NCBI RefSeq assembly: GCF_036669915.1
Contig: NC_089320.1
Location: 22,241,948 to 22,305,947, forward strand
DNA: 64,000 nucleotides
Origin: Pocillopora verrucosa
Taxonomy: Eukaryota; Cnidaria; Anthozoa; Scleractinia; Pocilloporidae
Direction: 5' to 3'
Part shown: positions 9,901-64,000 of the stretch, in pieces
Numbering within the stretch: the stretch's first letter is position 1
Layout: each line of letters opens with the position of its first letter
The notes under the pieces: model-generated
Told to the model about the DNA's origin: nothing
The model's database searches: none
The model's input: only the letters and a program-made list of their open reading frames with translations
Translations under genes and position numbers: made by a program

Positions 9901-12900
9901 TAGCTTTTTATGCATCACACAGTTGGTATGACAACCATTTTATTCTATCAAGGCAGGTAAAGATAATTTGTCTCAAAGCAAGCTAAGGTTATATTTCAGT
10001 TTTTTGTTTGTTTGGCAGATCACAGTCTAAGACTTTGGAATATCAAAACAGATGTGTTAGTTGCAATATTTGGTGGAGTGGATGGACATAGAGATGAAGT
10101 CCTCAGTACAGTATGTATCTCAGAACAATATCTCTTAGTTTTTCTTCTTTCTCTTGTTTCCTCGTGGGGCGTCAGTGGTCCAGTGGTTAGTGCGCTGGAC
10201 TCTGGGTTGAAGGGCCCGGGTTCAAGTCCTACCAGGGGCATGTCGCTGTATCCTTAAGCAAGATGCTTTACCCACTTTGCTTCGTCTCTCGGATAAGACG
10301 TAAAGCCGGAGGTCCCGTCTCACAACCCTTCTATATTACAAAATAAATTGTGGGACGTAAAAGAACGCACGCACTGTTCGCAAAGAGTAGGGCACGTAGT
10401 GCCCGGTGTTGTGGTCTATCTCGATTTGTGCCGTCGTAGGTCTGGGTGGGTGAGGTGTGATCACAATGGACTGAAGCGGCTGCCAGAGGCGCCTTTAATA
10501 TGCTGACGTCCGATCTCACCTCTCTGGTTCCTCCGCAATTCAGCCCTTGGCTGCAAGTGAGGAAATTGGCACCATTCATCTATCTATCTATCTATCCTCT
10601 GTTTTCCTTTTCTCTCCTTTCATTTCCCTCATCATCTCATGGAGCCAATTAACATACTCTTTGGGTTTTTAAAGAATATAAAAATTGAAATGCAGAGTAC
10701 TGCTTCTCTGGGGCTTGGCCAATTTCACCACATTCTGTTTCCTTTTTCTATTAATGTTCAGTTCACTTTGCTTTCTTTGATAGTTATTGAATTCTGTGAT
10801 CCTTTCAATATTTTATCCAAGTTCAGTTTATAGACTGAAGCAGTACCCCTCTCAATATGATAAAAACAAACCAAGTGGAAATTTTAGAAAGGCTTTTTTT
10901 AAACTGTGAAATTATTCTGAAATTAACTTACAATTTAGTTAAACATTAACTTTTAAGCTTCATTTTGTTTGTGACACAGATTGTTTGTGAACTTTTCACA
11001 GGAAAAGTGTGAGGTGTCATGTTGTTCTTGTTGACGTGTCTTTTGATTTGTTCAAGGACTTTGATATTCTGGGTGAAAAGATGGTGTCCTGTGGTATGGA
11101 TCACTCACTGAAGATATGGTCTCTTCAAACTGATGCCGTCAAGAAGGTAAAATCAAACTGAAGATTTTTCAGGCTTGTAAATTCCTAAAATTTATCTCGG
11201 GATGCAATCAAAAGCCCCGGTGTAATGTTCTACATACAGTAATTGTTTGTAATGTCAGCACTGAGTTTTGTCGTAATTGTTAAGGTATCTTTGAGGGAGA
11301 CATGATACCAAAAGCTGAATGAGCTATAGTGTGTGTTTAATCTAAGTTACAATTTATCTTTTAACATTTGATTGCTTTCTCCTCATTTTTTCTCTTTCTT
11401 GTCTTAGGCTATTGCGGAGTCCCATTCGTACGATCAAAGCAAAACTGAGAAGTGAGTATTTCCCAGGCAGAATTTACTTTCCATTATGCATTGTTCGAGA
11501 AATACCTGTCATGAAATAACTCTCCTCTCCACCCACATTTTGGTCTCAAACCAGACAGCAGCTGCAAAGAAGGATAGTTAGGGGTTTATCAGACTCTATC
11601 CAATAGTGACACATGTTATTGTATTATAATTTATGTGACAGCTGTTGGAAGTTAAACAACAGAGGTTGACAAAGAGACATGTTATGTTAACTTAATGCTT
11701 AATGTCCTTGCCATGTATTCAAGCAGCTGGATTCAAGCCTAGGCCTCATCATTGGGATTTGTTTTTTTTCAAGACATTTTACTTTCTCAGTCACTCTCTT
11801 GTATCCAGTAATAGCAGTCACATCCATTTGATAATTTGTTGGCAAGCACACAAACCTTTATGTGGTACTATTTTTAGGTTTTAATTTGATTGGTTTCAGG
11901 ATTTTACTAAAGTATAAAATAAATGCAGTTTCTTGTCTTTAAATGCTAAGCAGTTGGCCCCTTAGCATCACTCAGGAGAGAGGAGCATTGGCCAAAACCA
12001 GTCAGCTTTACTTTAGCAAAAGGCTGCCTTACATGCCTGTGTTTTTCTTCTTCACTTGTCCTGTTTGTTTGGTCTTTGTGTTCATATGTTTATAACAACT
12101 TTTTTTCTAGCACTGGTCGTGTTATGGGTAAATAATCCCATACTCTTTAGTGGTGACTTCTAAGTGATTTGTTGTCTTTTTATTGCAGAGCTTTTCACAC
12201 TGTCAAGCTCCACTACCCTGACTTCACCACCCGCGACATTCATAGAAACTATGTGGACAGTGTTCGCTTCTTTGGTGACCTCATCTTGTCTAAGGTCAGT
12301 TACTTTTATCACTGCAGAATAGTCAAGCTCTGTTATGAAAAAGGGGAAGACTCATAAAAAACATCTATCTGAAATTTTGATCAAGCGCTCAAAGAGAGCA
12401 ATCGGGGTGTGGCTGGCACTTTATTTGACCCCCTGATAAATACCACATTAACACCACCTAATATTGTACCCCTTTCTGAAGCTTTCCTTGGTGATTTCCA
12501 CAGATACCTGGCACAAGAACTTTGATATTATATTTATAATAAAATATAGGTGAAGGGACAACAAAACATCCTGGTGAACTGACTATAACTAAACCTGGTT
12601 TTCTACCTTTGGATTTTGAGTGTAGATGAAGAAAAAACAAAAAAATTGACACGCGTAAGAGGGAGACCTGGGAAGGGTAGATTTGTTTGAAAATCATTAC
12701 AGTTGTAACAACAGTTGTGTTCATGATTGGAGGATCTTTGAATTCACCCTCTTTAAACGCAACTGAACCTTTCCATTTATGAATCTATCTTGTTTTCAGT
12801 CATGTGAAAACTGCATTGTATGCTGGAAACCACAAGAGCGATTTGAGGACATTTTTAATGGGGTAAGAAATAGAGAATGTATTTATTTCATTACAGAGGG

Positions 12901-35514: not shown

Positions 35515-38500
35515 TTACATTTTCCTCACTTCCAATTCTCCATTGATAGGCCCGCGGCAAGTGGGGCAACGAGAATCACCTTTGCTCTTATGCTCAGTTA
35601 TACATCTTCCACAATAAAGAAAATGTATGCAAGGCATAATGACACAATTACGTTGTCGTTCAAAGCAGATTTGGCACAGTTCCGATCCTCTAGATTGTTC
35701 TAGCTCTCTCTCTAACTGGCCTATTCTCTCAGTGTTTTTCATGTTGCTCTCTTCTGCGTCCTTAAACTTCTGCTCGAACTCTAATCTCAGTTCATCAGAA
35801 ACCTGCCTGCGTTGAATTTCAAAACTTTGGCGTATTTCAGAAAGACCGGGTTCAAGTTGATAGTTTCTGTCCAACACTGCCTGAGCAGCTCTCAAAGAGT
35901 CCAGTTCGCCTTTGAGGTCTAAGTTATCGTCTTTTAACTTTGTTGCACTTTCAACCAAAGAAAAAAGCTGGGATCTTATGTAACTCATCTGCGCAAGCTT
36001 TAAAGCAGTTTCTTCATCAACTTGACCAGTAGACAGCTGACCTACAAATACTTAAAAAAAAAAACCACAAAACCATGGATTGAGCCATCAACTTTCTTAA
36101 CTGTCATCGCCCAGCATGAAATTTTTAAAACTCTTAAATTACTTTTTAATTGGCGAATTAATCAGGTGATATCAAGCACAGGGAGGGGATACTAACTTGG
36201 GTTCCTTTTGATAACTTTCAAGTGCATGGCACTTCTCTTCTACAAATTGCTTGTTTAGCGCATGTCGTCACGCATGCTAGAGCGTCTTTCACTTGACACT
36301 TAATGAAAATTTGTTCATATTGAATTATTTAGGTACCAACCTTGGCCTTGTTTGTATTCTCGGTACTCACTGACACCGTGGGGCCAAGTGAAAAGAGTTA
36401 TGCCATCCAGTGATCCATCGTTCCATGTCCCTTCCTGAATGGTCCCATTTGGTAACTTCAAGATCCCATATCCTGTCATTTTATCATACTGCCACAAACC
36501 CTCATATATAGCACCAGATACAAACGTCATCTTTCCATGACCATGCCTAGCAAACAGAAGACTGGGCATAAAGCAAAAATCTCTCTCCTTTTCTCTTTAA
36601 TATCTGGCAGTTTGCTTTTAAGGCTGAAAATAGAGATTTGCATTGTGTTGCCCTGAGTAGCTGTTCTTAGTTCATAGAGTTTTCAACTAACAGTCACTTC
36701 TCTCTTAGTGAACACCTACTTACATGGACCATGGGGCTTAGGCAAGATTTTCAGAAAGGGGGGTAGGTCTACCTGTGCGTTCTACTTGCATTTGGGAGCA
36801 TGCCAGGTTGGTTTGCTATGATTAATTGACTCAAGATACAAAGAAAAGGTTACATGCACACTCTCTACCACAAGCTATGCTTTTAGGAAGCTCAGACTTT
36901 GTCCTTGCTGTTCCAGTTCTAGGTCTTGCTCAAAACAGTTTACAGCTCTGTTGCTTTTACAACTTAACAATACAACTCTACTTTCTCGACACACCTCATG
37001 TTATTCCTCCATCCACCAATGTAAAACCCATGTTCATTGACTTCTGGGCTGTCACTTTTTACAGGTACTGTCAGAATAAAGCCTTCCCCTTCACCGTTCC
37101 TCATACCTGCAACACATGTAACAATAACAGAAAGTTCCCCAACAAATTAGATGCATGGCGTTAGTTTTACTGATAGAAACTTGTTTCAGTGTTTCTTACA
37201 CCTTCCTCCTGCTCTTACTGTAATGTCGTTTCAACAAACAATAATACTATTTTGACCTATGCCAATTTTTGATGTCATCAACATCAAAAAGGAGTGAACA
37301 ATTTCGTTTTTGCCTCCAAAATGATCCTCAGATCATGAAACAAAGAACCTTTCTCAAAAATGACCAAGTCAACTTAAGTTGTTTGGGGGAGCTCTAATTC
37401 AAGGAGTCTGGGAGGCCCTGTATAAAGGAATCAAAGGTCTTTTTAGATACTCTCAGTTGGAACATCAAGGCATCATATGACTACAGAATCAATCAATACA
37501 ATTTCATATGAGCTACATAGAAGCTACAAGCTCAAGGTGGCTACTTGGGGTGAGAAATTCAATCAAGTCCATCACGGCATAATGTCTGGGGCAAACTCCA
37601 AGAATATTACACCTAATGGTTCTCACATTTCTCCTTATCCTTTATCCCTCTAAACCAATCTGACAGTTGTCCCAGATATTTACCTCTGAACCAGTCTCCT
37701 CTGTATAAAAGTCTCCCTGTCACAGTTTTCAGGCTTCCATATCCATGGGGAAGTTTCCGCTGACCTCTCACCTCACTGACTGCCTGGGAGGTTACAGGTC
37801 CATTAACCTGACATATACATTTCAGTGCATCCTTGCTGGTCATTGCTTTGACTTGGAAGCTGGTAAAAGGGTTTCTTGCATAGCGACAAAGCATTGTAGT
37901 TTTAAGTGCGATCTCCTCAAGATTGGCACCAACAGTCTGCATGTTATCTTGTGATGATTCTGAGCAGGAAGAAACCAACACAAGTAAGTATCTTATTAAT
38001 GGCTCTCAATCTCAAACGCATTTTTTTTATACAGGTAACATGATGGAACAATTCTGGGGTGTTCCGTCACCAAGGTTGTCACTTCCTCCAAATAAGTTGA
38101 TAACCAGCCCATCATCTGAGTCTCTGCACAAGAGGGAATACATACGTGGGTATATATGTTTTTGAGGGACATGTAACACCGAATAAAATGTTTCCACTCA
38201 AACTGATACCTTTTGTTGGACACTACGTGCATTTAAACATGGTTTTCTGTCTTTTATTTACATTTATTTCCCTAGTAGAAAACATGCAAAAATCCAGGAA
38301 TAGCTTAACCTTTTAACTGACCCAAGATCTCATTAGTAATTCTCCTTACTGTCTGCCATACAGTTCTTATGTTGTTAGGTTTGAGAATTTGGTATTGGAT
38401 CAACTAATTATCCCCAAATTGATAATTTTCTTTATTCTCATCACTTATCTAGTTGATATTGTAAGGAGAAATTCATCTTGGTCACTTATGGGAGTTACAG

Positions 38501-41174
38501 GGTTAAATGTTTTTGAATTTTTAAAGTTTTCACAGGGGCTTCATATCAATAGGAATGAAAGCTTTTTTGATTTTCTTGAAGCAGAAAAAACAATTTAGGA
38601 AATCATTTTCAAACAATCAATGTTATCATCGCAGACATCACTATTCACATTCTCAATTGCATTCCTATTTTCACTCATATTATTTCTGTTTTGTCATTTC
38701 AGTTTCACTTCATATAAGCAGTAATCCTTCACTGTCGCCCCTACATGTAAGCTGATAAGTACTGGTGTGAATTACAATATTCTAAGAGCAGACACAGACA
38801 TCAGTATCTGTACCTGGAGATGAACTATTATTTGATGAATCAGCTGATTCACCAGTAATCATTGAGTTCAAGGTGATTAATCTTTGAAAAAAATTTCTTT
38901 GAATTTCTGTACTGCCCATCAGCCCCACTAAAGGATCCTTAAGCTCACACAATAGATCCCTTGGATCATCATCTGGATTCTCATCAGAGCTTTCTGCATG
39001 GCTGGTCTCCAGTCTATTAGAACCAGTGTCTCTATGTCCCTCAGATCTGGCAGCTTTCTGTCCCAGTTTGAGCAACACCAGCTTATGGAGAGAGTTTTGG
39101 ATTTGCATGCACTTGATAATGCTCCCGTGCAGAGAGGACATGAGGTCTTTTCCCATTGAAACAGTCACCATTGGTGCTTGCTCTGATTCTTCAGCTGATT
39201 GGTGAGACACTTCACTGGGATCAGTTGATGGTTGTGTGGTGGAATAATGGGAGCTCTGTGATGTTTGCTCTTGAGCATTGTTTGTGATAGAATCTGTGTC
39301 CACTGGAAACAAATGCAAAATCCTTAGGACAGGGCTCACAAAATATTATCCATGAAAGATTATTGATAATTTAAACTTTTTGAAATTCTTGTGCTTTTTG
39401 CTGTCATTCACATACAACATAAGTTGCTTTAAGGAGCATGCAAAAAAAGAAACTAGTTTTATATATCCTGATTTTAACTTGATTACTTTATACCATAAAT
39501 TGTGTGAATAAACTGAAGCTGTTCCTTATTAAAAAAGTTAAATTATAAAACAAATAACTCTTTTTCTTACTCGGGCTGGGATTCTTCATTTCAACACTTG
39601 AATTTGACCAATGATGTAAGGTAAAGCCTCTTGAATAATTTCTAGCTGAACTTTTGAATTGTTTTTCTGACCTTTTGGTTTTTGGTTTCTTCACATACTT
39701 ATAGTCCTCTAAACGCAGCTCCTAAATAGTTTACAAAGATAGATACATAATCACCCAGGAGTTAAACAAGTTATTTCTAATTAATTTATTACAGTTAACT
39801 GAGTTACTGAAAAATTGTCATATGGTTGCTTTTTTTGGCTTTCGCCTGAAACTGGGTTAAAGGTAACCATAGAAATTAATTGAACAACAGTTGATTTTTT
39901 TTTTTTTAACCAAGTTTATTAATTTCTAATCACCTTTCTGCATAATTAAATCCAGGTTATAGTGGCCTTTTATCAGTGCCAAGATGTGTGGGAGATAAAT
40001 TCAGTGTTCTACAAGGCAGAGTCAAGTGCATATATAAGCATCTAGACAAAAAAATAAGTTTCTATTAATAGCAAAATCACCCAAACAAAAGTTAACTGTA
40101 CTTACCTCCACACTCTTTTGAGAATAAATTTCCATCATGGTTATGGTTTGAAACCTTTCTTTAAATCCTTGAAGATCAAGTGATGACAATGAAGTGGCCT
40201 AGTGTAATCATGAGACATTCATCTTAATCAGAAAGGGTTATAGTACACTATGAACAACAATCATAACAACAGGTCAAACATAGATTTAATATATAAATAT
40301 TCTATAAATAATATTCATAAAAGAAGTATAATTTGTTGTTTACAGAGGAAAGCTACTTCGCAACCACCCAATTAGACCTTGTCAAAAAGGTTTGGGGTGC
40401 ACTTAAAACTTTCTGAGTCTGCTACTTACACAAAATTGTATGGGTGTTCCACAGAGTGTCCATGCATTTGGATAAATTACTGAAAAGTAAAAATTCATCA
40501 TACAAATCATTGAAAATATCAATCATCAAAGTTGGGTGCCACTTACAGGACTGGTGGAACTATATATGGGCTACATGCAAGACCAGTTTTCAATTCATTG
40601 TAGAAACCTCAATATTTCTGCAATAAGGCTTTACTCTTCTGTAGTCATTGCTTGATGTTACCTGAATGAGATCAAATTCATTACAGTACTCTTTTGGTTT
40701 AAAGCCACATCCAAACTGATATCCGTCAAAGAGGTTCAAATCAATATACTTCAGACAAACATGACTTGTATATTAATGTTACATGAAATGCCCCCTCCAC
40801 TCATCCAAAATAGAAGAAAGACAGAGCTAGATTACAGTTCTTAACCAAGGTGAATACTAAAATTAAGGAATTTTTTTATCTTATGTTTCTACTAACTGAT
40901 ACTCCTGACATATTTCTAACCTGACTATTTGTAACATAGAATTTGTGGGTTATTTAAGTTAGAGGTGCAAATGGAGCAAAAAATATCAACATGAGGGAAG
41001 CTTGTAAAAAAGGAGGATGCTGAAAAAAGCTGAGCCAAAATAAGATTCTGGCACATTAAGGAATTTTGCCTTACATGGAGGTAGATTAATACTTTGTCCT
41101 GAATACAAAAGATATTCCTGATGATCATCTTCTTCAAATGCAACATTCCAACAAATAGCCAACTCTGCAGCCAT
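35515..41174 (-). CDS. RING paralog A: GLEBS motif, helical domain, MORN repeats, coiled coil, RING finger
   Basis: Nine exons (41174-41075, 40479-40430, 40198-40106, 39721-39571, 39302-38814, 37959-37684, 37106-36995, 36546-36341, 36041-35515) join to 667 residues. Residues about 46-92 match the NUP98 GLEBS motif, the Rae1/Gle2 hook: GTPIQF, then FQTITMMEIYSQKSVEELRL and EDYKY. No FG repeats are present. Residues 132-294 contain a helical block with SIIKCMQIQNSLHKLVLLKL. Residues 295-492 contain YARNPFT and MORN repeats ([20 protein letters not shown]). Residues about 515-610 are coiled coil. Residues 615-655 form a C3HC4 RING (CQIC, MPCIH, YCGRC, CPTC). It is probably a ubiquitin ligase, with Rae1 or Bub3 as candidate partners; that is inference. 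It lacks the SH3-like and heptad segments of paralog B. A non-coding first exon may lie at about 41822-42120, where a good donor site is visible. Confidence 0.85.
38309..38502 (+). mobile_element. piggyBac-like MITE flanked by TTAA, in RING gene A intron 5
   Basis: TTAA duplications at 38305-38308 and 38503-38506 flank an element beginning CCTTTTAACTGACCCAAGAT and ending GGGAGTTACAGGG. It shares agatctcattagtaattctc with the copy at 55.5 kb. TTAA duplication and termini of the form CCC...GGG are the piggyBac signature. Confidence 0.75.
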
Positions 41175-46600: not shown

Positions 46601-48793
46601 TCAACTGTCGATTAAATATCCTACATTGGTCTTCATATCCAAAGGAAGCACACAGGACAAAGGAAACAAGCGCATTGTGACAAATTGACGCTCCCTAAAC
46701 CAAAATTGTACCTGCAGCTCCGCTGAACGGTAGTTTATCGTAATATACATGCTGTACCACATCCTCTGTAGTGGAAGCTTTGGGTTGTTTATTTGTAAAA
46801 GGATTTCGTACATATCCGCACTCCACTCTGTTCTTAAAGATAACTTCCTCAAGAAAAGATTGCACCGCCAAAATGTCTGCCCGTGGCTTGCTTTTCATTT
46901 CTGCAAAAAGGACGCCATGGTCACGGGTCAGGAAACACTAAACGTGCCGAACAACACACTGAAAAAATTAATGCCGAAAAACTGAGTACCACCTGAGGGC
47001 CAACCTTACCTAGAGAAGGGCGTGATTTGGCTTTCGGCAGTACGTAGAAAGGCTATCATAAAATTTCTAAAGTTTCAATTGACATTCGTTCCATACATGT
47101 GATTGTTGTTAATATTAGTATGTTTAATATTATTTCACAGTATAAACGACAACAGGATATGCACCGGATTGGTCAATATAATATTACTTGGTTTTTCTCT
47201 AGAAGGGTAAGACAACGACTAGCACTCACCGCGTTAGTAAATGCCCACCTTAACTCAGTTGTTAACATAAGCATCGGAGAGAGAAAAAACTTCAATTAGG
47301 ATACCCAGTTCTAAACAACGTTTATCAATTAGTTTATCAATCATCTACACTGTATCACTTTACCTAAACTGCCACTCGACAGCTCAAGAGTTGCCAAGCT
47401 GACTGCTGTTAATCTTTGAAAAAGTGTTTTTTGAATGCTTAAACAACGCATCAAAGCTTCCATGGGTTGTTTCAGATCACTGAGGAGAACCTGTGTATCA
47501 TGTTTACAATTTTCTCCTGTACTGCTCACATCAGAAGCCTCGTGTTCATCTGAGGCATGAACACTTCCCTGGACATCGGTGTCAGGTTGGCTTGAAGAGC
47601 ATGAAGCACGACCAGCTATTTGGAGAAGAACAAGTCTGTAGAGGGAGCTCTGGATTTGTATACACTTAATGATGCTCTTCAGCAGGGCTTCTGACAACTG
47701 TTTTCCTTCAGAAACTGTTAGCATTTGACCCGTTTCTTTTTCAACTCGCGGATGAGCACTGACTTTCGAGGTGAGACCAACGATTGATTCGCGGAAAAAA
47801 TCTTGTTCAGATGATCGTAGTTGTTTAGCGTCAACTGATTCTGCGCTGGACTCTATGATCACTGGCGAGACAAGTGTGGCACTACATTAGTTTAAATAAT
47901 GTTGTGAGGACAAACCTATGCTTGATAACTTCAAGCCATCTGGAGGAAAACCTGCCGAGACTAGCGCGATCTTTAAACGAAATAGTGCTCAGAATGTTGT
48001 AGTCTCTAAAAAATCCTTTCGTTCCCAATTAATTGTGGACATGTTCTTTTGAGCTGATACGGATGACCAGGTCAAATAAAATGGCGCATCAAAGGAGTCC
48101 ATGATACACTTCAAGTAATTGATCCGGATTCGAAAAAAAAAGATTGCAATACAGGGATGTGCCTAATCAAACGTTGCTAAGCCTGTATTATACTTTAGTA
48201 GAGCCATTCTTAAATTATTGTATAATTGCTTGGGGTAATGCCTATTAGTGAACTGTGCAAACTTTATTTATATTACAAAAGAAAGCTATAAGAATAATGA
48301 CCTTTTCCAGCTTCACTGAACACTCAAGTCCTTTATTTGAAGACTTGAATTTTATCAAGCTGTGTGATATCATTACCCTTCAACTTGCAGTGTTTATGTA
48401 TAAGTTCCATTACCAACTTTTACCTTCAATCTTTGATATTTTTTTCAATCCTGTCAGGGACATACATAGACATAACACTAGGTTGTCCTCCAGGATGACT
48501 TATGCCAAAACAAATTATGGAATTTTCAACATAAGGTTCCAACATAAAGCTTCTCTCCCTCAAACGTTTTAAGAAAAAGTTTAAGCCAATTCTTATTGCG
48601 AAATATTAATTGCAGATTTACCAAAACTACAGTTTATTCAGGCTTTCCATTGTTTAAAACTAGAATACTTGGCTTTCTTTTTTCGCCTTTCTTTTTCTAC
48701 GAGCTTTTTCTTTTCTCTTTACGTGTTTTGTGAAGTGTGTGTGCGTGTGTGTGCGTGTGTGTGCGTGTGTGTGCGTGTGTGTGCGTGTGTGCG

Positions 48794-48836
<43 letters not shown>

Positions 48837-49994
48837 GTGGTACCTGACCCTTTAATATAATCATTTATTAATAACCTAAGTAAGGCTGCCCTATCTTTTT
48901 AGACCTAGGTTATTACAGGTAGCCTGTATTTTTTCATGTAATATTATTTTTTGTATTATGAAAATTAATGTAGGGTACAAATAAAGTCGTTGTAGTTGTT
49001 ATTGTTATTGTTGTTGTTAAGAGGGTGTAATCTCTTGGTCTAGCCAATAAATACGAAACCAATCAGTTTTCTTAATATATTACTGAAATAAGTGTTGATA
49101 AAACAAAGTGCTACTGAGCAATAGTTTTTACTCACTTGGAGTTGCATTTTCCTCTTTCACGGCGGAGTCAAACAGCGACTTCAAGGGTTTATCCTTTCTT
49201 TTCTTTATACTTGGGGTTTCAAATGAACGAACCTGGCTATTGTCTCTACCTAATTAAATACAAAACGGATTAAAAATGGAAACATTTCATCAAAATTATC
49301 AACACTTTAGCCAAAGATTCTTTTTCGTTTCAGCCCAGTGCTTTCAATAAGACTTGGCACCCGCCGGCGCTCCGGTGGGTATTCTGTTGTGAATTGCCGG
49401 GTATAGTTTGGAAGTTTTCAAGAAAACTCACGAAGTGTGACCCAGAATACCTCGAGATCTTCGATAGTTCTTTCAGTCGATCGACTTCCACCTTGTAAAC
49501 AAGTTTTGACAAAAATGATCAGATATTGTCTTATCATATATTCCAGCATACATTTCATACATTTCCAGCGAAAAAAAAATTTTGAGTTTCCAACAACATA
49601 CTGACTCAAATTGTTTTCTATATTATTCGCCGACGGGTGCTTTACCGAGGTAGCCAACGTCTTCAAATCTTATTGAAAACACTAAGTTTTAATACTTATC
49701 AAATATGACTAATATCTTAACGGTTTGATAAAACGATTCAAATACATGTAAACATCAAAATTAAATTTTAGCTTACCAAGTTTAGCAAGGAATTTTAGCG
49801 GTAAAATCTTCAGTTCCTCAGTATCCTCCATTTTAACAATTGCATCAGGGTAGTCAATATTGATTAATGTTCCTCTTCTTGAACGGCCATCTCCGAACAT
49901 AATTTTACTCTTAAAAGTTAAAGGACATTACGGGTAAGTGAAGAGCCAAATAATATCCTTTTCAAAACCAAGTAAGCAGATCTAGATGTATAAA

Positions 49995-50037
<43 letters not shown>

Positions 50038-53000
50038 GGTATAGCAGGTAATTTAGTGTTAACAACTGGGTTGAAAACGTAAATTAGCCACCGTAAAGGG
50101 TAAAAAAGCTGACGTTTCGAGCGTTAGCCCTTCGTCAGGGCGATTGAAGGGCTAACGCTCGAACCGTCAGCTTTTTTACCCTTTACGGTGGCTAATTTAC
50201 GTTTTCAACCCAGTTGTTAACATTAGATCTAGATGTATATCGAAACCAAATATGAATTCTGACAATTGAATGAAATAGGAATGCAATACACATGATATAG
50301 AATTCAGCATTAGAACATCATCATGTCCTGTCCAGGGAGTCTAGTCACTGATTAATAAGCGTGTAACGGGTCGCTTAGATAATTATTGTTCAGCCAGATT
50401 TTCTGTTCGCCATTTTTTTCTTACCCCATAAGCCCCAAAATACCAACAACAACAAGGATGCTAACTATAAAAGGAAAAAAAAAGTTAATTCTATACGGAC
50501 TAATAAAATACGATGAGCGATGTTGAGAGTAACTTAGCTATACTTACTTTGTCGTTTTTAGATAACTTCACCGGATCAATATTTTCAATCGAGATGAGGA
50601 CCGGGTGGTATTCATCGTATAGTTTCACTAAACACTGGCGTCCACTTACTGAGCGCACCACACCCTTTTTGTTTATCAGCCTCTTACCTGCCTGTGAATA
50701 GAGGATCGTACCCAAATCAAAAGAGTCACGTCAGTGTTACACATGCAAGGGAAAAAGGAGGAAGTATGAATCTCGCTGAACGAATGTCCCTTTGACAGAA
50801 TATACGACCACTTCATTATTACCATGCTCTACTTTTTCTCATTCACAATTCTATAGTCTACGGACCTACACAGTTATAACTGACTCCTTCCTTATTTTTC
50901 ATCCTCGTCGATTAAACCACCTATGCCATTTCCCTCTTTTGGATTTTGAGGTCGCAAAAAGTTCAGTTTGAACATCATACCTCTTTTCATTAAAAATTTA
51001 GGTGACAAGTATGCCACAGTCTTGGATTTTGAAATACTCTTTCTCCTTGAGCACAAGGCTTACAACACACACCGTTAACGTCGACTATCCATTGTAGCAG
51101 CATACAGGGTGACTGTCGCGTTGACCTAGTTTCGTGACTTTTCACACCACCAGCCCCTTCCTCACTTCTTCCAAAATTTTAGTTGGAAGACAATAGGATT
51201 CATTCCTTACGTGAGAATTCAGATTTTCTTTTTTCCGAGTATGGCTTTGTCAGAGGTAGACCTCAATTGTCTTTAACTTTCATCATGCTGCCATTTTATT
51301 AGCTTTTTATGTTTCAGCAGAAGGCAAAATAGTTCTGCGTGCCGATGTACTGTGCGCGTACTTGCTCTTCTTCTTTGACAGAAGAACCAGGGAAAACTCA
51401 AATTTCAATTCCTAACCTCAGTAATAACTTACCTTGTACGTTTCATTGATTTGTACTTCAATGTCAGTTGGGTCCCATTTTGCGGCATCGAATCCTGTGA
51501 ATCGTAAAGGAAGATAAACTAAAAGCAATTTCGTGGATGAAATTAACTTTCTGTCACATCGAGGAGCGAGACGTTATCTTCTAAGAACTGACTGTATTTC
51601 ACGGAAACGAGCTAACAGGTAGTAAAAACAAAATGACGCTGAAAATTGATAACGCCTAAATAAAACTGCAACCGCTTAAGTCTTCCCTTTTAAAACCACA
51701 AGAACTGCACTTTAAGGTAGTAGTACTTGCCTAGACCTACTTTACAACTGGATAACAATTTCTGGCATTAATAACACTCACTAGTACCCATTTCAAGCAT
51801 GTTACTTTGATTTATAATTCTCTTTTGTACCGTAACCATGAACTTTTCACGGAGGTAAAGGATTGCAAAGGTGTTTTTTTTTCAACTATTTCCTAACCAA
51901 GTCAAGAGAAGATCAAGAAACGAGACTGAAACTAAGTTACTTTTAGACTCAATATGTTTGCTTCTTCAGGAATGATGTTACTTAAGTCACGCGTGTAGCT
52001 TAGATATCGCGTGAAATTTGATTAAGATTCGTACACGAGAACATTTATTCCAAGACCCTCCGACGTGTGCATGGATTTAAAGTGTTCTGAAAATAACTGA
52101 GACATACGGCCCATAAGGGAGTGTCTCTCTCCTTTATCTTCCCTACGCATAATATTTCCGAAAAGATCGTCAAAACAAATTTTAAAAAAAATATTCTAAT
52201 TCATCTCGGGAGTCTCCAGAGTTCGCTGATACCAAACTAAAACATTTACAATTAATAGACAAAGATTCAGCCCCTCACCTTCCAGAAACGACCAAAATGA
52301 ATTGCAACGAGCTGCAGAAAAGCTGGATGAAACAGTGTAGTTAGGTGACGAAGGACTGTAGGTTGGTGACGTGGGACGGTAGCGTAGTGAGGTAGGATTG
52401 TACCTTGGTGACGTAGGACTGTAGCTTGGTGACGTAGGACAGTAGCTTGGTGACGTAGGATAGTAGGTAGGTGATGAAGGACTGTATTTTGGTGACGAAG
52501 GACTGTATGTTGGTGACGAAGGACTGTATTTTGGTGACCAAGGGCTGTGCTCATACACTGACGACGTAAATTTGTAAGGTGTCGAGTGGGGAAAATAGCT
52601 CAGTCGAGAACTGCGAGGTTTTCTAGAGCTAGAGGACATGGTACGGAAGCCAGACGAGGAAGAAAAAGAACTACATCCAGAGCAGGTGTAAAGATAGTTT
52701 TCATTTCTATCAGTAGCAGACGAGGAGCACGTGGTTGAAGAACTCTTTCCAAATGGCTCTTTCTGGGCACTAGTCTTATTCTGGTACTCATAGTCTTCAA
52801 AGCGCAACTCCTGAGCAATTTAAAACGTCTACACTTAAGGACAAGTTAGCTATCCTTAAGTCACTATGTTTGAGATTTCATGCTCCAGCAGTCATAATGA
52901 GAGGGAGCCAGAATGAGTGATTTATTGGCTCTTACATCTATGGACAATCATTTCCTATGATATATTATAGACATACTCGATTTATAAGTCATACTCAGCT

Positions 53001-53211
53001 GTAATTAATATCAGGTAATTTAGAGTCAACAACTGAGTTGGAAATGTAAATTGACCACCGTAAAGAGTAAAAAAGGCTGACGTTTCGAGCGTTAGCTCCT
53101 CGTCCAATCGCTCTGACGAAGGACTAACGCTCGAAACGTCAGCTTTTTTACTCTTTGCGGTGGCCAATTTACGTTTTCAACCCAGTTGTTAACACTAAAT
53201 TACCTGCTATA

Positions 53212-53260
<49 letters not shown>

Positions 53261-55878
53261 ATTCATTTGTAATTATATATCATTAAGTTAATAAAAGATC
53301 ATGATCAGATGCCTCATGGAATTACAAAAAAATTGAGCAAATACTCAGAGCCTTAATTTCTACGTTGATAACCTATTTAACCTACTTCAATGCTCTTGTT
53401 TGCATATTCATCCATCATAGTTATGACTTGAAATCTTTCATTATACTGTACATCACTGGAAAGTGACACTGTGGTCTAAAAAAAGAACAGTCATTCAAAA
53501 ATTAAAGAAGGACATAAACTAGGGAATGGAATGTCATCAATAACAGCAATTTAACACCGAAACATTTTCAAGTTTACCAGAATGTTAATTGCAGAAAATA
53601 TCTAACTAATTAAAAAAATACCTTCACTAGATCACTATTGAGGTACTACAATTTATTTTTCATTTTCCAAAGCAAGGCTAAGAGTGTGAAATAAAAAAAA
53701 TTTTAGGAATTTAATGTTACCTATATCTTTAATTAAGTAAAGGTACAAATTAAGTTCTGTTAATAGCTTGGTACATGAAATTGTTTGAAATATTTAGCAA
53801 ATTAATAAATTCACTCAAAATAGCTCCTTGACCATATCCCATTTTTTCAATTTCTTTACAATCGTGGTTTATCTCATATATTTATTAAGTTCAATAAATT
53901 TTTTTCACAAAGAAAATTTAATAAAACATAAATATTGTGTTATTTTTTGAAAATTCAGGGTTGCAATAATTCAAACATCCTCTTTTCTTGTTTTAATTTA
54001 ATCTTTTCATGATCATTTTGAATTGCAATTCTAAAAGACTTTGTTAGAGTAAAAATTTAGTCATTTTGTTTCTGTGTGAAAAAATATTGATGGTTAACAT
54101 AGCTAAAGGAATGCAAGCTTTTTTTGGAACCAATATTGATTTCAGTATTTGCTCTATGGGTACAAAGACTCATCAAGAGTCAGCTTAATGCTGATTCACT
54201 TTTAGAAATCATCTAAGCCACTGTTCAGTCAAACTTCTGAATGTAAAGTTACTACTGACAATAGAAAAAAAAAGAGATGGCATGTAAGACAATAAAAAAA
54301 GTTTACAAAAATGGTTGGATTAACAAACAAAAGATTGAATGCAATGAAACAAATCAACATTGTTTTGAAATAAGAATTGGAAATTTCATTAAAGAACCAA
54401 TCAAATATTTTGGTTATCTGCAGAAGCACATTACCATTTTTTGGTCATCTCACTTTTTTTCACAAAATTTATCACTGCAGACAAACACCTAGTGGTTCCT
54501 TAACCTCTAAACTATCTGTCAATATTACAGAAGCCAGTGGTTGTGATGGCATAAGTGACAAGATAACTAAACTATATGCACTAAAGGTCTTTAAATAATC
54601 TATAAAACCATACAGTCACATGTCTTTAGTAATTAACTCCCCACTTCCTTTACAAAAATATCCTAGAGACTAGATCTGAAACTTGTGAGTCTCTTGCTGC
54701 TATTCAATGCTAAGTTACATAAACCACTAAAGAGAAAATAAACAATTTTTTGGAAGCGATTTTAATCTTAATTGAATTTAAACAATAAATAATACAATTT
54801 TTAATTGTCTTGGCTCCTTAAATTTACAATGCATGTAATAAGTATATATTAATATTTCTTAATTTAGACCAACAATCAGATTGGATCTGTAAGACCAAAT
54901 AAGATCATGTACAGAAAATATCATATGGATCAGATAATTACAAAAATGATACCTCTTTCACCATTTTTAAATCCTTTCCATCATAAATCAAGAGTGTGGG
55001 ATGGTCGATCAATATCTAATTTAGCATAGCTACCCATATCATTAAATTTGTCACAAGCTGAGCAATTACAGTCTGAAGTACCATCAGTGGTGGAAATCAT
55101 CCATTGAGAGTGAATTGTGATAATGACTTAATAATCACTCTGCTACTACATAGAAAAACTTACACGAAACTGTATTGGATGCGTTCCAATTGTCTCCCAT
55201 GTCTTAAGCTTTTTACCTAGAATGTGAAATAAAACATGCCATAAGCATTTAACTATCAACATTATCATATAAAAATTTTCTATTTTCACCTTGCCTTAGA
55301 TTTGTCAAACTTGCCTCAATCTGAATTTTTTATGCCCTTACATGAAAAGAAATTCCTATTGAAATCATTTTGCTTGTCCCTGTCCATAACTTTGAATCAT
55401 TAATCATAATTTACAACTTAAGATGGACATTAATTGAACTGTAATTAAGTGTACCAACAGTAATGAGTCACATGTTGCCAATTTTAGCACATAGTATAAA
55501 TATGTTATGTATAGACTAGTTAACCCTCTAACTCCCAAGATCTCATCAGTAATTCTCCTTACTGTTTGCCAAATGATTTTCATTAGGTTCGTATGGGGAA
55601 TTTTTTATTGGATCAATTAATAATCCCATAATTGATAATTTTCTATATTCTCATCACTTGTCTGCTTGATATTGTATAGAATGATATAATAAGGAGAAAA
55701 TCTGTCCTGATCAATTACAGGAGTTGAAGGGTTAATAAATAATTATTAATTATCAAAATAAATTTTCATAATTACAGGGAGTAGAAATTGTTTCTCCTGA
55801 GTATAAAAATAATTCTGGCTCACTACAGTTGTCATCTTCAAATACAACATGTAAAGCTGTTTCCAAGGATAAGGCCAT
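43627..55878 (-). CDS. RING paralog B: GLEBS motif, Pol II CTD-like heptads, SH3-like pair, MORN repeats, RING finger
   Basis: Fourteen exons (55878-55776, 55216-55164, 53475-53386, 52810-52279, 51494-51433, 50691-50548, 49909-49777, 49249-49136, 47861-47364, 46900-46712, 46182-46081, 45555-45450, 45007-44802, 44150-43627) join to 951 residues. An in-frame stop just upstream supports the ATG. The GLEBS motif (residues about 47-93) reads GTHPIQF, then [20 protein letters not shown] and EDYEY. Residues 177-239 are nine heptads like YSPTSPS. Residues 281-372 form two SH3/Tudor-like units ([36 protein letters not shown]). A basic stretch IKKRKDKP could be a nuclear signal. Then come the helical block ([20 protein letters not shown]), MORN repeats ([20 protein letters not shown]), a coiled coil and a C3HC4 RING at 898-938. 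Introns hold two PLE repeats, a LINE fragment and a piggyBac-like MITE. Role is inferred: a Rae1-linked ubiquitin ligase, possibly nuclear. Confidence 0.85.
44345..44600 (-). mobile_element. SINE body, second copy of the family at 10.2 kb
   Basis: Read on the minus strand, acgttaaagaacccgtgtac, cgcagagtaggtgacgttgc and cagtgttgtg align in order with the body of the SINE at 10166-10597. The tRNA-like head was not found, so the copy looks truncated. It lies in the last intron of RING gene B. The shared block covers the part resembling the Nin-DC domain. Confidence 0.6.
48110..49020 (+). mobile_element. CR1/L2-like LINE 3' fragment, decayed
   Basis: The plus strand encodes relics of the C-terminus of a non-LTR reverse transcriptase: [20 protein letters not shown], two in-frame stops (TAG TGA near 48245), then [25 protein letters not shown] and [10 protein letters not shown]. 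The order (LYxxLVxPxLxYCxxxWG then LQKKAIRI) is characteristic. The insert ends in aataaagtcg and a (TTG/TTA)n tail near 48990-49018, and includes a GT microsatellite. It interrupts RING gene B intron 8, antisense to the gene. Confidence 0.8.
48736..48838. repeat. GT/GC microsatellite
   Basis: About 100 bp of gtgtgtgtgc units grading into pure GT, inside the LINE fragment. ORFs reading through it as alternating Cys/Val/Arg are artefacts. Confidence 0.95.
49995..50226 (-). mobile_element. PLE terminal-repeat fold-back in RING gene B, with hammerhead-like core
   Basis: The left arm gtaaattagccaccgtaaag is opposed by ctttacggtggctaatttac, and the outer end agtttctaaagaaactgtgg matches the other copies. 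On the minus strand, 50138-50108 keeps the complete core (CUGACGA, GGGC-UAAC-GCUC stem-loop, GAAA, CGUC). The plus-strand arm keeps a damaged version with GAAC instead of GAAA. It lies in the intron between the two SH3-like exons. Confidence 0.8.
52337..52528 (-). repeat. Coding 21-bp minisatellite: RNA polymerase II CTD-like heptads
   Basis: Nine consecutive 21-nt units within exon 4 of RING gene B encode [56 protein letters not shown] and YSPSSPN, followed by Tyr. Y1, P3 and S5 are kept in all nine, P6 in eight of nine, S2 in five. The DNA unit is approximately ggtgacgtaggactgtagctt on the plus strand. Confidence 0.92.
53012..53258 (+). mobile_element. PLE terminal-repeat fold-back in RING gene B intron 3
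   Basis: The arms gtaaattgaccaccgtaaag and ctttgcggtggccaatttac pair, and the right end gacgcagcaccacagtttct matches the other copies. The plus strand 53113-53143 reads CUGACGA, GGAC-UAAC-GCUC, GAAA, CGUC: the core is complete but stem II has one mismatch. The minus-strand arm has a disrupted CUGA. Confidence 0.8.
53640..55100. other. Large AT-rich intron of RING gene B
   Basis: The intron between exons 2 and 3 (53476-55163) is very AT-rich, with long A and T runs and no exon with proper splice flanks and family similarity. ORFs around 54229-54598 are composition artefacts. Confidence 0.6.
55524..55731 (+). mobile_element. piggyBac-like MITE flanked by TTAA, best preserved copy
   Basis: TTAA at 55520-55523 and 55732-55735 flank a 208-bp element beginning CCCTCTAACTCCCAAGATCT and ending CAGGAGTTGAAGGG. 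The termini pair as inverted repeats (CCCTYYAACTCC). No ORF. It lies in RING gene B intron 1. Confidence 0.85.
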
Positions 55879-57807: not shown

Positions 57808-59250
57808 GGCAATGTGTTTAGAAAAAGGGTACAGGCTGTACGAGGTATAGAAAGAGGGAAATGCGCTTGTGGTGAATGCGAGGATTTCATGAGGTCAGAT
57901 GGAGCAACTTGTGGCTGTTGTGGCTGTTTGCCGACTCGCCATTCTAAAAAGGATGCCCGCTACTCCTCTGACTCTGTTGGTGGCACATCTGACTCTGTTG
58001 GTGGCACATCTGACTCTGTTGGTGGCACATCTGACTCTGTTGGTGGCACATCTGACTCTGTTGGTGGCACATCTGACTCTGTTGGTGGCACATCTAACTC
58101 TGTTGGTGGCACATCTGACTCTGTTGGTGGCACATCGGGTGCGTGAACAAGTGAAAGTGCAAGTCCAGAGAAGTGGAAAGATGAAGACCTGGGGTGGTTC
58201 CCGAACCCAAAGGGCGAATATACTGAATTCTAAAATAGTATTCTGCCAAAATTCTAACTGTCCTTTTGGACCACTTGTCGATACAAGGAAGCTTTCGCCG
58301 CTGTTTCGTGACTGAAAGAAAGCGCCAGTGGGAAGTTCGCGAGGCTTTGAAAGCAATAAATCACAAGTTGGCTTTAGTGAATTCTGATAATCCAGCGGCT
58401 GCAGGGAGATTCATGCAGCTTTATATGTCGTGTCAAGAGCGAAATGGCCAACTATATAAACTTTAAGTTTATATAAGGATGAGAAGGATAAGACTACCAG
58501 CGCTCCACTTCTAACTCGACGACCATATCCCGACTATGGCAAACTACCAAACTTCCATTCTCTCTTGGAATGCAACCCCCCACCAATGGCCGTGAGCCGG
58601 ACGACTTCCAGCCTCGAGCTCAGATTAAGCGATTGTTTAAGGAAAGTGAACTAGTTAGTGGCGACAGCGTGGCTATTAGAAAGTTTTCAGATAAATATAT
58701 TGTCCCCGAAAAGCTTGTGGCAGAGTATGTTGAGCAACTTGCCGAGATAAAAATGCCCCAGGAGAAAAAGAAAGGGGAGACTGAAAGGGAGCGAACGGAA
58801 CGGCTGAACTGGGAGTATAGTGACATTGACTGCGTTGGACTGTACAACTCCGATAAGCTGTCGTCCTTGAGGGTGGACGAGCTATCCTCGTACTTTTCCT
58901 CTTACAAGATCACCTTCAAAGGGTAGAAAGCTGAAAAGGTCGCAATGATCAAAGCGCACATTGGCAGCTTGCTGTACGATTCAATGGAGTGTCGACAACC
59001 TCGGCAGCCCCCACTGAGAAATGTGCAGCAACAAGTGACCGCAATTTCCGAGGTTGAAACTGACTCGCAAAATGATGTAGTAGATCGAGTTGTCGGTTCA
59101 AGCCTGAGTAGCTTAAGTGACGAATCGTCACCGGTGACTAATTTTATACCAGAACCCCGCGCGGAAACATTACCGCCGTCAAAATATGGACGAAAGCGGC
59201 CACGGGTCGAGAGAGACGATTATGTTAGCTGGGAGAAGATAGTTTTTTAA
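57808..59250 (+). pseudogene. Decayed cysteine-rich ORF with 21-bp minisatellite and charged C-terminal ORF
   Basis: An N-terminal frame starting MGNVFRKR carries a Cys/His-rich stretch (CACGECEDFM, CGCCGCLPTRH), then eight heptapeptides DSVGGTS, and stops at 58146. Further on, 58570-58926 and 58945-59250 are in the same frame, separated by one TAG. They encode LFKESELVSGDSVAIRKFSD, EKLVAEYVEQL and a SAP-like LRVDELSSYF segment, then a Ser/Pro-rich basic tail. Frame breaks and the stop suggest a dead gene, likely of transposon origin, but I do not recognise the family. A spliced gene with missed introns cannot be excluded. Confidence 0.5.
57970..58137. repeat. 21-bp minisatellite, eight copies
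   Basis: The unit gactctgttggtggcacatc plus t is repeated eight times; one copy starts aactctg. The near identity shows recent expansion. It encodes DSVGGTS on the plus strand and is open in other frames of both strands as well. Confidence 0.95.
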
Positions 59251-60340: not shown

Positions 60341-63300
60341 TTAGTGATTCACGTTACACAACATTTCTCCAGAGATAGGCCCACGGCAAGTAGGGCAGCG
60401 GGAGTCACCTTTCCTTTTATGCTCAGCCACACATGTCCTACAGTACAGCAAATGAGTGCAGGGCATAATGATACAGTCGCGTGGGTTTTCAAAACAAATC
60501 TGGCACAGTCTCCCTCCTTTGGCTTCTTCCAGCTCCTTTTCTAATTCTCGTATTCTTTCGGAGCTTTTCGATTTGCTCTCTTCTGCATCTTTTACCCTCT
60601 GTTCGAACTCTTTTCGCAGTTTTTCAGAGTCGAGCTCACGTTGACCATCAAAGTACTGGCGAAGTTCCAAAATAGCCGCTTCATGTTTTTCGTCTAACTC
60701 AGCCTGTCCTACTCTCAATGTGTTCAGTTCGTCTTTGAGAGCCAGGTTCTCGTCCTTCAACTCAGCCGCGCATTCACGCAGTGCTAGGAGCTGGGATCTA
60801 ATGGGACTCATCTGCGTAAGCTTTACAGCAGTTTCTTTGTCAATTTTAGAGCAAGGCAGCTGACCTGGAAAAGGTTTCAAAAAAGCGATAAAGGTTTCAA
60901 CTTTCAACTGTTTTTTACTTAGTTCAATGATCAGTATATATTGTAAATTATCGAGTATCGGGTGCAAGACGCACGTCACGGCCATACCATATACACAAGC
61001 AGTGTCCACAACTTTCAACTTCTCTCCTTATCAGAGCACATTTTCTTTCCCATTAAATACCACAGCCAAAGTTAGCATTACTTTCTCACTCGTTATGAGT
61101 TCGCCGTTCAGTCTTTCAAAAGATTCACCATAAAATGACGCATTTCACTTTTTCATCAGGCCATCTAGTTAAAACTAACCTTGACCTTGTTTATACTCGC
61201 GGTACTCTGTGACACCATGTGGCCAGGTGAAGAGAACACAGCCGTCCAACGACCCGTCCTTCCAATTCCCTTCTTGAATGGTTCCATCCGGACACTTCAG
61301 GGTCCCATATCCAGTCATTTCATCATACTGCCACTGACCCTCGTATACGACCCCGGACACAAACGTCATTTTCCCCTTGCCATGCCTGAAAATAAAATAA
61401 GTAGTTTGGGCTAAAGTCTTTTCTTTCCAATTCGAGAAAAGATCGACAATTAACGTGAGGGGCTGAAGCAAATTCTGAGTTAAGTCGGATGAGAGTATAT
61501 TAAAAGGAAGGGAAAGAGAAATAGAGGAAGCAAAAATAACTATAAATGCATTTTTCTGATCGTTCAAAACCCGTCTGGAAGGGCCACAGTTAACTCTCTC
61601 AAAGATAGATAACTTCTTAATGGACAAACGAGTCCCCCATAGATCATCATAGACAGGACTTAGCTTTCCAAAGACAGTGGAGATTTATTCTGATTAAAAC
61701 TTTAGATCGGCTGGGATGGACTCTCAGTTTATCAGGGGAGGTGTTCCTTTCGAAGGAGTTAACTTAGTCTGCACTTTGCTCTTACCCTTCAAAATTTTTT
61801 GTCTATAAAATCTACTAATTTCACTACGGAAAGAAAATGGTGTCTACGAGTGCACCGTCAAAATTATGTTCAACGTACCTCATGTTGTTTTTCCATCCTC
61901 CACTGTAGAATCCATTTTCGATAGTGCCTGGGCTGCTACCCACTAACGGCACTGATAGAATAAGTCCTTCGCCTTTGCCATGTCGCTTGCCTGCAGTGCA
62001 AGAAATACGTTCAAAGGACATCATCTAATCGCTTCACTGATAATTTAGCACATTTTATGAAGACTCCTGGACAGAAGTGAAAAAAGCTTCTAAAAGGATA
62101 CGGAGAAGAATCATGGCGATGTGTAAGAGGTACATTGAACGCGAGGGAAGTGGAGAGGATGAGTAGGGTACAAGAAAGGAACGAGTACTAGAGGTCCTAA
62201 TCTCCTTGGCAATCTAATCTAATGCAGAACCATCTGCGTTCATCATCTCAATCCTTACACAGCCTCCTTTTCTTTATTACTCCTTTGCATTTACTTAAGA
62301 GGGTTGTCCCTCTTTTTTTTTCTTTATTTATCCTTTGCATTTACTCAAGAGGGTTGTCATTTTCGTTTAATTTCAATTAGTTATCTTTCCATGTCAACAT
62401 TTAGTTATTTCCCTCACGGTAATTTCCATACCGCAAAAAAAAAAAGGAGTCAAAATATCCCGCCAATGCAGATTACCTCTGCACCAGTCTCCTTTGTATA
62501 AAAGCTTCCCTGTCACGGTTTTTAGGGTTCCAAATCCATGAGGAAGTTCCCGCTGACCACTCGTCCCAACTTTGACGGTTCGAGAGCTTAAGGGCCGCTC
62601 ATCCTGACATACATGATGTAGGACATCGTCGCTAGTTATTGCCTTAACTTCTTGGTTGGTGTAAGGGTTTCTTGCATAGTAACACGGCATTTTGGTTTTA
62701 AAAGCGATCTCTTCGAGGTCGGAACGAACTGTCAGTATGTTAACTTGACGGGATTCTGTAAAATAACAAGGACACGAAAGCAAATTGTTGAGAATGTACA
62801 TTGTTTAAAATTTTTTCATGTAGTGTTAAGTACTTCTTCACCTTGACCCTCTCTTAAAGATGCGCCATCGTTAGGCGGGTCAGCGAATTCGTCAGTTATC
62901 ATCGAGTTCACGGCGACCATTCTTTGAAAAAGTCCTCTTTGAATTTCTGCAGAGCGCATTAAGGCCTCTAAGGGGCTTTTGAGCTCACACAGGAGAGTTC
63001 CTAGATCACAATCCTGATTCTTTCCGGCGCTTTTCTCATCACTCGCCTTGGGCCCCGGGAGAACATCATTTTCATCTTTAGGTTCGGCAGCTCGCTTTTC
63101 TAGTTTCAGCAACACAAGTCTGTAGAGAGAATTCTGGATTTGCATGCATTTGATAATGCTCTCAAGGAGGGAATCCATAAGTTCCTTCCCTTCTAAAACA
63201 GTCACGGTTGGCGCTAACTCTACCTCGTCAGCTGGGGGGAGAAAAACTTTGCTAGGATCTGCAGAAGTTTGCGCCGTAAAATTTATTATCGGAGAAAAGG

Positions 63301-64000
63301 AAAACTTGTGTGATGGTTGCGCTTGAGTGCGAACTGTGCCAGGACCTGTGGCCTCTGAAAAGAAAGTTAAAAACAGTTGAGTATTTGCCGCACTGAATTT
63401 AAATAATTAAGAAATTTCCCTGTTGTAAGGATACCTTCTCTCGTGAGCTCCCTCTACAAGTTTCCCCACTTACTGCACCCTCGCTTTTTCTGTCTGGCAG
63501 GATAGACATATCAATAAGAATAAGAGGGGAACGGGGGACTTTCCTTTTTTTTCGTGTTACGTCAACTGACTGAAAGGTGAAACGGTCTCGTTAATCATGT
63601 TAAGTGGAATTGCAGAGATCAAAATCTGATCCTGCCTGTTATTTCATCAGTTGTTGTCGGTTAAAGCTTTTAATTTGTAGCGAGATAAGGAATGTTAGGT
63701 TATCAGCTTGTTTTTAAACGTGTTTTTTTTCCTTCCCTTACCAGCCACTCCAGATACGATCACATCATCAAAGCCAGAATGACTATAGATTTTTCTGTCA
63801 AGCGTTTTCTGCCTATCAAGATATTCTTTTCAATTGTTTCATTTACACTAAAAAGTAAAACGTAAGGTGCTAGAAGAAAATTTAAGCTACACTCAATTAA
63901 GCAGGCCAGGCATAAAGGTGACGGTGTGGGGTTTCTTACTTTGGCTTGCAAAAACCCCCGCACTGGATGATTTAGACCAAATATTTGCTGTCTTCTGTTT
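60341..64000 (-). CDS. RING paralog C: helical domain, MORN repeats, coiled coil, RING finger (5' end outside window)
   Basis: Exons read with confidence: 63354-62842, 62755-62477, 61990-61879, 61385-61180, 60864-60341. A further exon ends at 63742 with a clean GT donor but its acceptor is unresolved. One more likely ends near 63941 (GVFASQ before a gtaag). The order and sizes match paralog A: the 112-nt and 206-nt MORN exons are identical in length. Visible are [73 protein letters not shown] and a long coiled coil (ECAAELKDENLALKDELNTL). The RING is C3HC4 (CQIC, MPCTH, YCRTC, CPTC) with tail GEMLCNVNH. The N-terminal part, including any GLEBS motif, lies beyond position 64000. Role is inferred as for A and B. 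Confidence 0.85.

Follow-up and report, generated by a model that had tools for sequence, protein, structure and literature searches.

The CTD of RPB1 is described as an RNAPII-specific segment in the accessible part of PMC3335468, and comprises 52 repeats in mammals according to the accessible part of PMC4042876. A run of nine heptads of the same kind lies in the 64,000-nucleotide stretch of the Pocillopora verrucosa genome analysed here (hereafter designated as the window), within a gene for a protein with MORN repeats and a RING finger. The locus thus raises two questions: what kind of protein carries the heptads, and does their likeness to the CTD have a functional meaning or is it the product of repeat expansion?

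The heptad array and the gene that carries it

The nine heptads are uninterrupted and in frame on the minus strand (52528-52340). Y1, P3 and S5 are present in every repeat (9/9 each) and P6 in 8/9, L replacing it in repeat 7; position 4 is either T (5/9) or S (4/9), and position 2 is S in 5/9. The original prediction had placed the array at 52337-52528, which is correct to three bases (52340-52528 in our analysis), and the invariance of Y1, P3 and S5, as well as the retention of S5-P6 in eight repeats, agrees with our counts. Degenerate units precede (HSPWSPK) and follow (YTVSSSF) the array. At the DNA level, the heptads constitute a 21-bp tandem array (10.1 copies, 82% matches), of which the majority sequence translates into YSPTSPS. 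When the window was translated in six frames, the pattern Y.P[ST]SP.Y was matched 8 times, always within the heptad array (8/8); 100 mononucleotide shuffles gave 0 matches. We thus reject a chance origin of the block in random sequence; these shuffles rule out random sequence only, and leave repeat expansion in play. The Pfam family RNA_pol_Rpb1_R was matched by the exon-4 ORF at 29.8 bits (cutoff 20.3) and by the whole protein at 17.6 bits, which is below the cutoff. Matches of the heptads to CTD stretches of RPB1 reached up to ~60 bits; HMMER flagged a large composition bias in them. A second 21-bp array was found at 57967-58136, upstream of the heptad gene and ~5.4 kb from the heptad array; it has 8 copies, 7 of which are identical, reads SDSVGGT in one plus-strand frame, and is unrelated in sequence to the heptad array.

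The heptads belong to one (copy 2; 55878-43627) of three related genes arranged in tandem on the minus strand within the window (Table 1). We combined ORFs, splice sites and a comparison of the paralogs into a model of copy 2 with 14 exons and 951 aa, which has no internal stop. All of its introns (13/13) are GT-AG, although the exon boundaries were set by eye with GT-AG in mind and this count is hence partly built in. Exon 1 is related to the first exon of paralog A, also referred to as copy 3 (41% over 34 aa, E 0.001), and exon 2 showed a weak match to the same paralog (14 aa, E 0.48). As originally predicted, the heptads fall in exon 4 of this model, which unites MORN, RING and heptads in one open frame of 951 aa. 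Nevertheless, they do not stand right behind the GLEBS motif as had been claimed: 87 residues, 26 of which are Ser, lie between GLEBS (aa 64-89) and the heptads (aa 177-239). The heptads share an open frame with the second half of GLEBS in exon 4, so that the frame in which the 21-bp repeat is read is set by GLEBS and was not picked at will from those that are open.

The domains at both ends of the protein were assigned with scores above the Pfam cutoffs. Nup98_GLEBS matched copy 2 at 40.0 bits and copy 3 at 30.0 bits (cutoff 27), and GLEBS chains of Nup98 in PDB match the motif of copy 2 at E ~6e-5. The MORN (43.9 bits) and RING (zf-C3HC4_3, 38.7 bits) matches of copy 2 both exceed the curated cutoffs, and all eight metal-ligand positions of the C3HC4 RING are invariant across the three paralogs. 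Exon 9 had no Pfam match at E 0.1, and the long stretch in exon 14 gave weak, sub-cutoff matches of coiled-coil type in the paralogs. The basic stretch KKRKDKP in exon 8 is a possible nuclear localisation signal. Scanning with the MORN/RING alignment yielded 43 stretches and 0 relatives in viral contigs, and 82 stretches and 1 relative in genome contigs; this single relative, from a Thiomargarita MAG, is 35% identical over query residues 1-127, which correspond to the MORN part. No description of a family joining MORN, RING, GLEBS and KOW6-7 was found in the open-licence PMC literature. The heptads, the open spliced model and the domain assignments are read directly from the sequence, from which we infer that the gene is transcribed and spliced as drawn.

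Table 1. Positions, within the window, of the exons of copy 2, of the heptad array and of the two other paralogs.
Feature	Position	Strand	Remark
Paralog A (copy 3), 9-exon 667-aa model, GLEBS + MORN + RING	35515..41174	-	
Third paralog (copy 1), 3' part, MORN + RING	60341..63354	-	5' part outside the window
Copy 2, exons 1 and 2, N-terminus	55878-55776, 55216-55164	-	
Copy 2, exon 3, first half of Nup98-type GLEBS	53386..53475	-	motif crosses exon 3/4 junction
Copy 2, exon 4, second half of GLEBS, Ser-rich linker, heptads	52279..52810	-	phase 0 in, phase 1 out
Nine CTD-like heptads, Y-x-P-(S/T)-S-P-x	52340..52528	-	aa 177-239 of the 951-aa model
Copy 2, exon 5, start of SPT5-type KOW6	51433..51494	-	
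Copy 2, exon 6, remainder of SPT5-type KOW6 and start of KOW7	50548..50691	-	
Copy 2, exon 7, SPT5-type KOW7	49777..49909	-	phase 1 out
Copy 2, exon 8, basic stretch KKRKDKP	49136..49249	-	aa 388-394
Copy 2, exon 9, region common to the three paralogs	47364..47861	-	
Copy 2, exons 10-13, common region with MORN repeats	46900-46712, 46182-46081, 45555-45450, 45007-44802	-	
Copy 2, exon 14, long stretch, then C3HC4 RING finger and stop codon	43627..44150	-	

Besides the three paralogs, the window contains two tandem related exon sets of the TUTase/Cid1-type poly(A) polymerase kind (1296-2926 and 4319-6185), which match PAP_assoc and the nucleotidyltransferase palm. A minus-strand ORF with a weak, sub-cutoff match to the PTR2 transporter adjoins an ORF for DUF4397 (37.6 bits, cutoff 30.6), a domain known mainly from bacteria (23465-23854 and 24374-25117), and an ORF at 9660-9986 has weak, sub-cutoff matches to WD40/THOC3 beta-propellers. 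An interspersed repeat with the core GACGTTTCGAGCGTTAG occurs at 50040-50220, at 52990-53250 and near 24119. Its 53-kb copy has an inverted arm, and two copies are located in introns 3 and 6 of copy 2, flanking the heptad and KOW6 exons.

An SPT5-type KOW6-KOW7 pair behind the heptads

A point absent from the original prediction is that exons 5-7 encode KOW6 and KOW7 of SPT5. In the 951-aa protein, Pfam KOW6_SPT5 matched aa 266-320 at 35.7 bits (cutoff 27) and KOW7_SPT5 matched aa 324-372 at 59.2 bits (cutoff 27.1), the former starting 26 residues beyond the last heptad. The best PDB matches by phmmer were KOW6-7 of human SPT5 (6ER0, E 2.3e-22; 5OHQ, E 3.7e-22), to which 46/109 residues are identical. 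Of the interface residues named in the accessible part of PMC6076269, 5/7 are identical (W979, D983, I984, K1042 and R1049), while I1044 is replaced by M and D978 by K. Five basic groove residues are proposed as a recruitment surface in the same part of that paper; K1083 is kept here, R1079 is replaced by K, and K987, R989 and K1017 are replaced by Q, N and Y, respectively. The possibility of KOW6-7 being a separate gene was rejected by the open frame and the shared exon. An NCBIfam scan with the 333-aa piece from GLEBS to KOW7 gave no match, and the scan of viral contigs with KOW6-7 gave 7 stretches matching a pattern and 0 relatives.

The likeness to SPT5 appears to extend to the arrangement of the C-terminus. 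With the heptads and KOW6-7 as the phmmer query, the match to full-length human SPT5 was colinear over residues 888-1084, and the end of KOW7 aligned no more than 3 residues from the end of the 1087-residue human chain. The score rose from 79.7 bits with KOW6-7 alone to 89.3 bits with the heptads and linker included, a gain of ~10 bits over CTR2 that may reflect just Pro/Ser/Tyr composition. The alignment suggests that the heptad block occupies the place of CTR2, but is written in the heptad language of RPB1. The heptads need not come from RPB1: the SPT5 tail (at the CTR2 position) or a minisatellite growing in place would be a sufficient source, and both may have contributed. At E 0.1, the 951-aa model gave no Pfam match to NGN or KOW1-5, the domains by which SPT5 is held on Pol II, and we thus do not file the protein as an SPT5. 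The 11 Pfam families matched in the model at the same threshold include no polymerase domain of RPB1, nor was any Nup98 domain other than GLEBS, including the autoproteolytic domain, matched at E 0.1.

Paralogs, codon pattern and rival explanations

The original prediction stated that paralog A has no such block, and this is borne out by the sequence. The model of paralog A contains no heptads, and tblastn with the KOW and GLEBS pieces at E 10 showed no match to KOW from its GLEBS exon up to the next exon; the candidate idea of KOW or heptad remnants in this paralog was rejected on both grounds. Its GLEBS exon passes directly to the common exon, and the intervening intron is in phase 1. With a phase 1 intron at either end, exons 5-7 of copy 2 are a symmetric 1-1 block; together with the phase 1 intron of copy 3, this fits either exon shuffling into copy 2 or loss from copy 3. 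The end of the copy 3 GLEBS exon (NSSVEMKNPSPM; window 39571-39721) resembles, by alignment, the end of exon 8 of copy 2 (49136-49249). This resemblance would fit a loss, and hints that the heptad-KOW block may have disappeared from paralog A instead of being a gain of copy 2. Copy 2 is the most divergent of the three over MORN-RING: copies 1 and 3 are 65% identical there, while copy 2 shares 47% with copy 3 and 52% with copy 1. In the partial model of copy 1, 3/4 donors are GT, and the first, as drawn, is not.

The absence of the array from paralog A would also be expected if the heptads were a 21-bp minisatellite that evolves neutrally within a disordered linker, in which case the GLEBS/KOW6-7/RING protein would be real but the CTD likeness a convergence devoid of CTD-like function. 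We regard this explanation as rather unlikely, albeit the heptad DNA is a 21-bp tandem repeat, another, unrelated 21-bp array lies ~5.4 kb off (57967-58136), and the linker before the heptads is rich in Ser (26/87). A neutral repeat would not readily account for a consensus of exactly YSPTSPS, for the location of the array at the CTR2 position ahead of SPT5 KOW6-7, or for the distribution of changes among the heptads, which gather at positions 2, 4 and 7 and mostly spare Y1, P3, S5 and P6. Compared with the consensus, the nine heptads bear 24 base changes: 1 replacement and 3 silent changes at Y1/P3/S5/P6, and 18 replacement and 2 silent changes at positions 2/4/7. The p value of 8.6e-6 from these counts is too good, since they treat the changes as independent; within the core positions alone, the counts give p 0.068 for the excess of silent changes. 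A test on columns is more trustworthy. Replacement columns of the core vary in 1/9 cases, versus 6/8 at positions 2/4/7 (Fisher p 0.013) and versus 3/4 silent columns (p 0.052), and the respective p values are 0.020 and 0.067 when the third base of the Tyr codon is omitted. The comparison among the heptads came out in favour of a spared core as far as the replacements are concerned (1/19), but only modestly in the column test (p = 0.013). The distribution of changes is consistent with constraint on Y1, P3, S5 and P6, as expected if the CTD core matters; we grade this evidence as moderate, because homogenisation of tandem repeats can also yield uneven columns.

Alternatively, the heptads might be an ordinary CTR2 captured together with KOW6-7 from an SPT5 gene, in which case they would serve the role of CTR2 and their likeness to RPB1 would be incidental. 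The colinear order of CTR2, KOW6 and KOW7 as in human SPT5 is consistent with such a capture, and the symmetric phase 1-1 block of exons 5-7 is what exon shuffling would be expected to leave. We nevertheless consider the capture improbable, as (i) the exon that holds the heptads also holds the second half of GLEBS and is separate from the KOW exons, and (ii) their match to RPB1 heptads (up to ~60 bits) is far above that to human CTR2 (~10 bits gained). That the GLEBS/heptad/KOW exons and the MORN/RING exons were joined artificially from different genes or transcripts is very improbable: the intron between exons 8 and 9 is 1.3 kb long, the donor of exon 1 (GTAATT) looks weak, and the model was drawn from sequence alone with boundaries set by eye, but GLEBS crosses exons 3/4, the heptads are in exon 4, KOW6 crosses exons 5/6, the frame is open across all 13 junctions, and GLEBS of paralog A lies directly ahead of the same MORN/RING exons.

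A putative ligase with an SPT5-tail-like module

The best explanation, to which we give roughly an even chance, is that copy 2 encodes a RING E3 which uses a module resembling the SPT5 tail to dock to the machinery of Pol II elongation or mRNA export. The co-occurrence of GLEBS, CTD-like phospho-acceptor repeats, SPT5 KOW6-7 and RING in one protein would point to a ligase acting at elongation or mRNA export. The protein would be a RING-type ubiquitin ligase, of which the GLEBS in the N-terminal half is expected to bind a WD40 protein, RAE1 or BUB3. The heptad array in the CTR2 position and KOW6-KOW7 would together form a module with the layout found at the very C-terminal end of SPT5, and it is most likely through this module that the ligase would dock to proteins involved in Pol II elongation or at the RNA exit. 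We predict that the heptads are phosphorylated by kinases of the CTD or SPT5, such as CDK7 and CDK9, and that they are read by CTD-binding domains. The RING would then ubiquitinate a partner recruited through GLEBS, through KOW6-7 or through the heptads.

What is reported on the SPT5 tail bears on this arrangement in both directions. According to the accessible part of PMC6076269, KOW6-7 of human SPT5 showed no binding in vitro to nucleic acids or to Rpb4/7 and has no partner assigned. This weighs against the proposal, as do the changes at four of the five basic groove residues (one of them R to K), the sub-cutoff Pfam score of the CTD repeat in the whole protein, the modest column test and the absence of NGN and KOW1-5 matches. 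On the other hand, KOW6-7 is proposed there to recruit proteins, which would suit a docking role; the region bearing KOW6-7 is stated there to be found only in metazoan and plant Spt5. CTR1 is given as a CDK9 target in the accessible part of PMC7455706, and CTR1 and the CTR2-CT region are described as redundant in repressing elongation in zebrafish in that of PMC2735033. The original prediction had suggested a link to the CTD, transcription or mRNA export. The KOW6-KOW7 pair after the heptads and the Nup98-type GLEBS strengthen this link, so that the interpretation is partly supported.

A more far-reaching version, which we hold possible but doubtful, is an animal E3 with a portable Pol II tail, in which functional CTD heptads, SPT5 KOW6-7 and a RAE1-binding GLEBS are united in one chain. 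Such a protein would be a substrate of CTD kinases, would either compete with CTD readers or recruit them, and would link ubiquitination with elongation, pausing or the export of mRNA. CTD-type and KOW6-7-type sequence in one non-polymerase protein with an export-type motif and a RING is an unusual combination, and would serve as a natural test of whether the CTD code and the SPT5 tail act as portable modules. Likewise, a protein reusing just KOW6-7 would provide a handle on a module that has no assigned function in the accessible part of PMC6076269.

Each part of the protein has a counterpart in a known system. Copy 2 shares a RING with eight ligands and MORN with C3HC4 RING proteins carrying MORN repeats. 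The GLEBS motif, above the cutoff in both copy 2 and copy 3, is shared with Nup98, but copy 2 holds 2 FG dipeptides and 0 GLFG. Among the matches listed for the open-licence PMC literature, the accessible text on CTD-like sequence outside RPB1 deals with yeast mimics and viral CTD binding. Yeast Trf4, Mpp6 and Sen1 are non-polymerase proteins with CTD mimics, a precedent for such mimicry outside RPB1, and the accessible parts of PMC4186968 and PMC7110113 describe these mimics as short single motifs bound by the CID of Nrd1. Copy 2 is similar to these in that a CTD-like sequence is placed on a non-polymerase protein, whereas it possesses nine full heptads in place of single short motifs. With the CTD of RPB1, it has in common nine consecutive heptads of the consensus YSPTSPS, but its array has nine repeats, is internal, and is not on RPB1. 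As for the C-terminus of SPT5, a Tyr/Ser/Pro repeat block is followed by KOW6 and KOW7 in both proteins, in the order of human CTR2-KOW6-KOW7; in copy 2, the heptads are of RPB1 type, GLEBS stands in front, and the chain runs on into MORN and RING.
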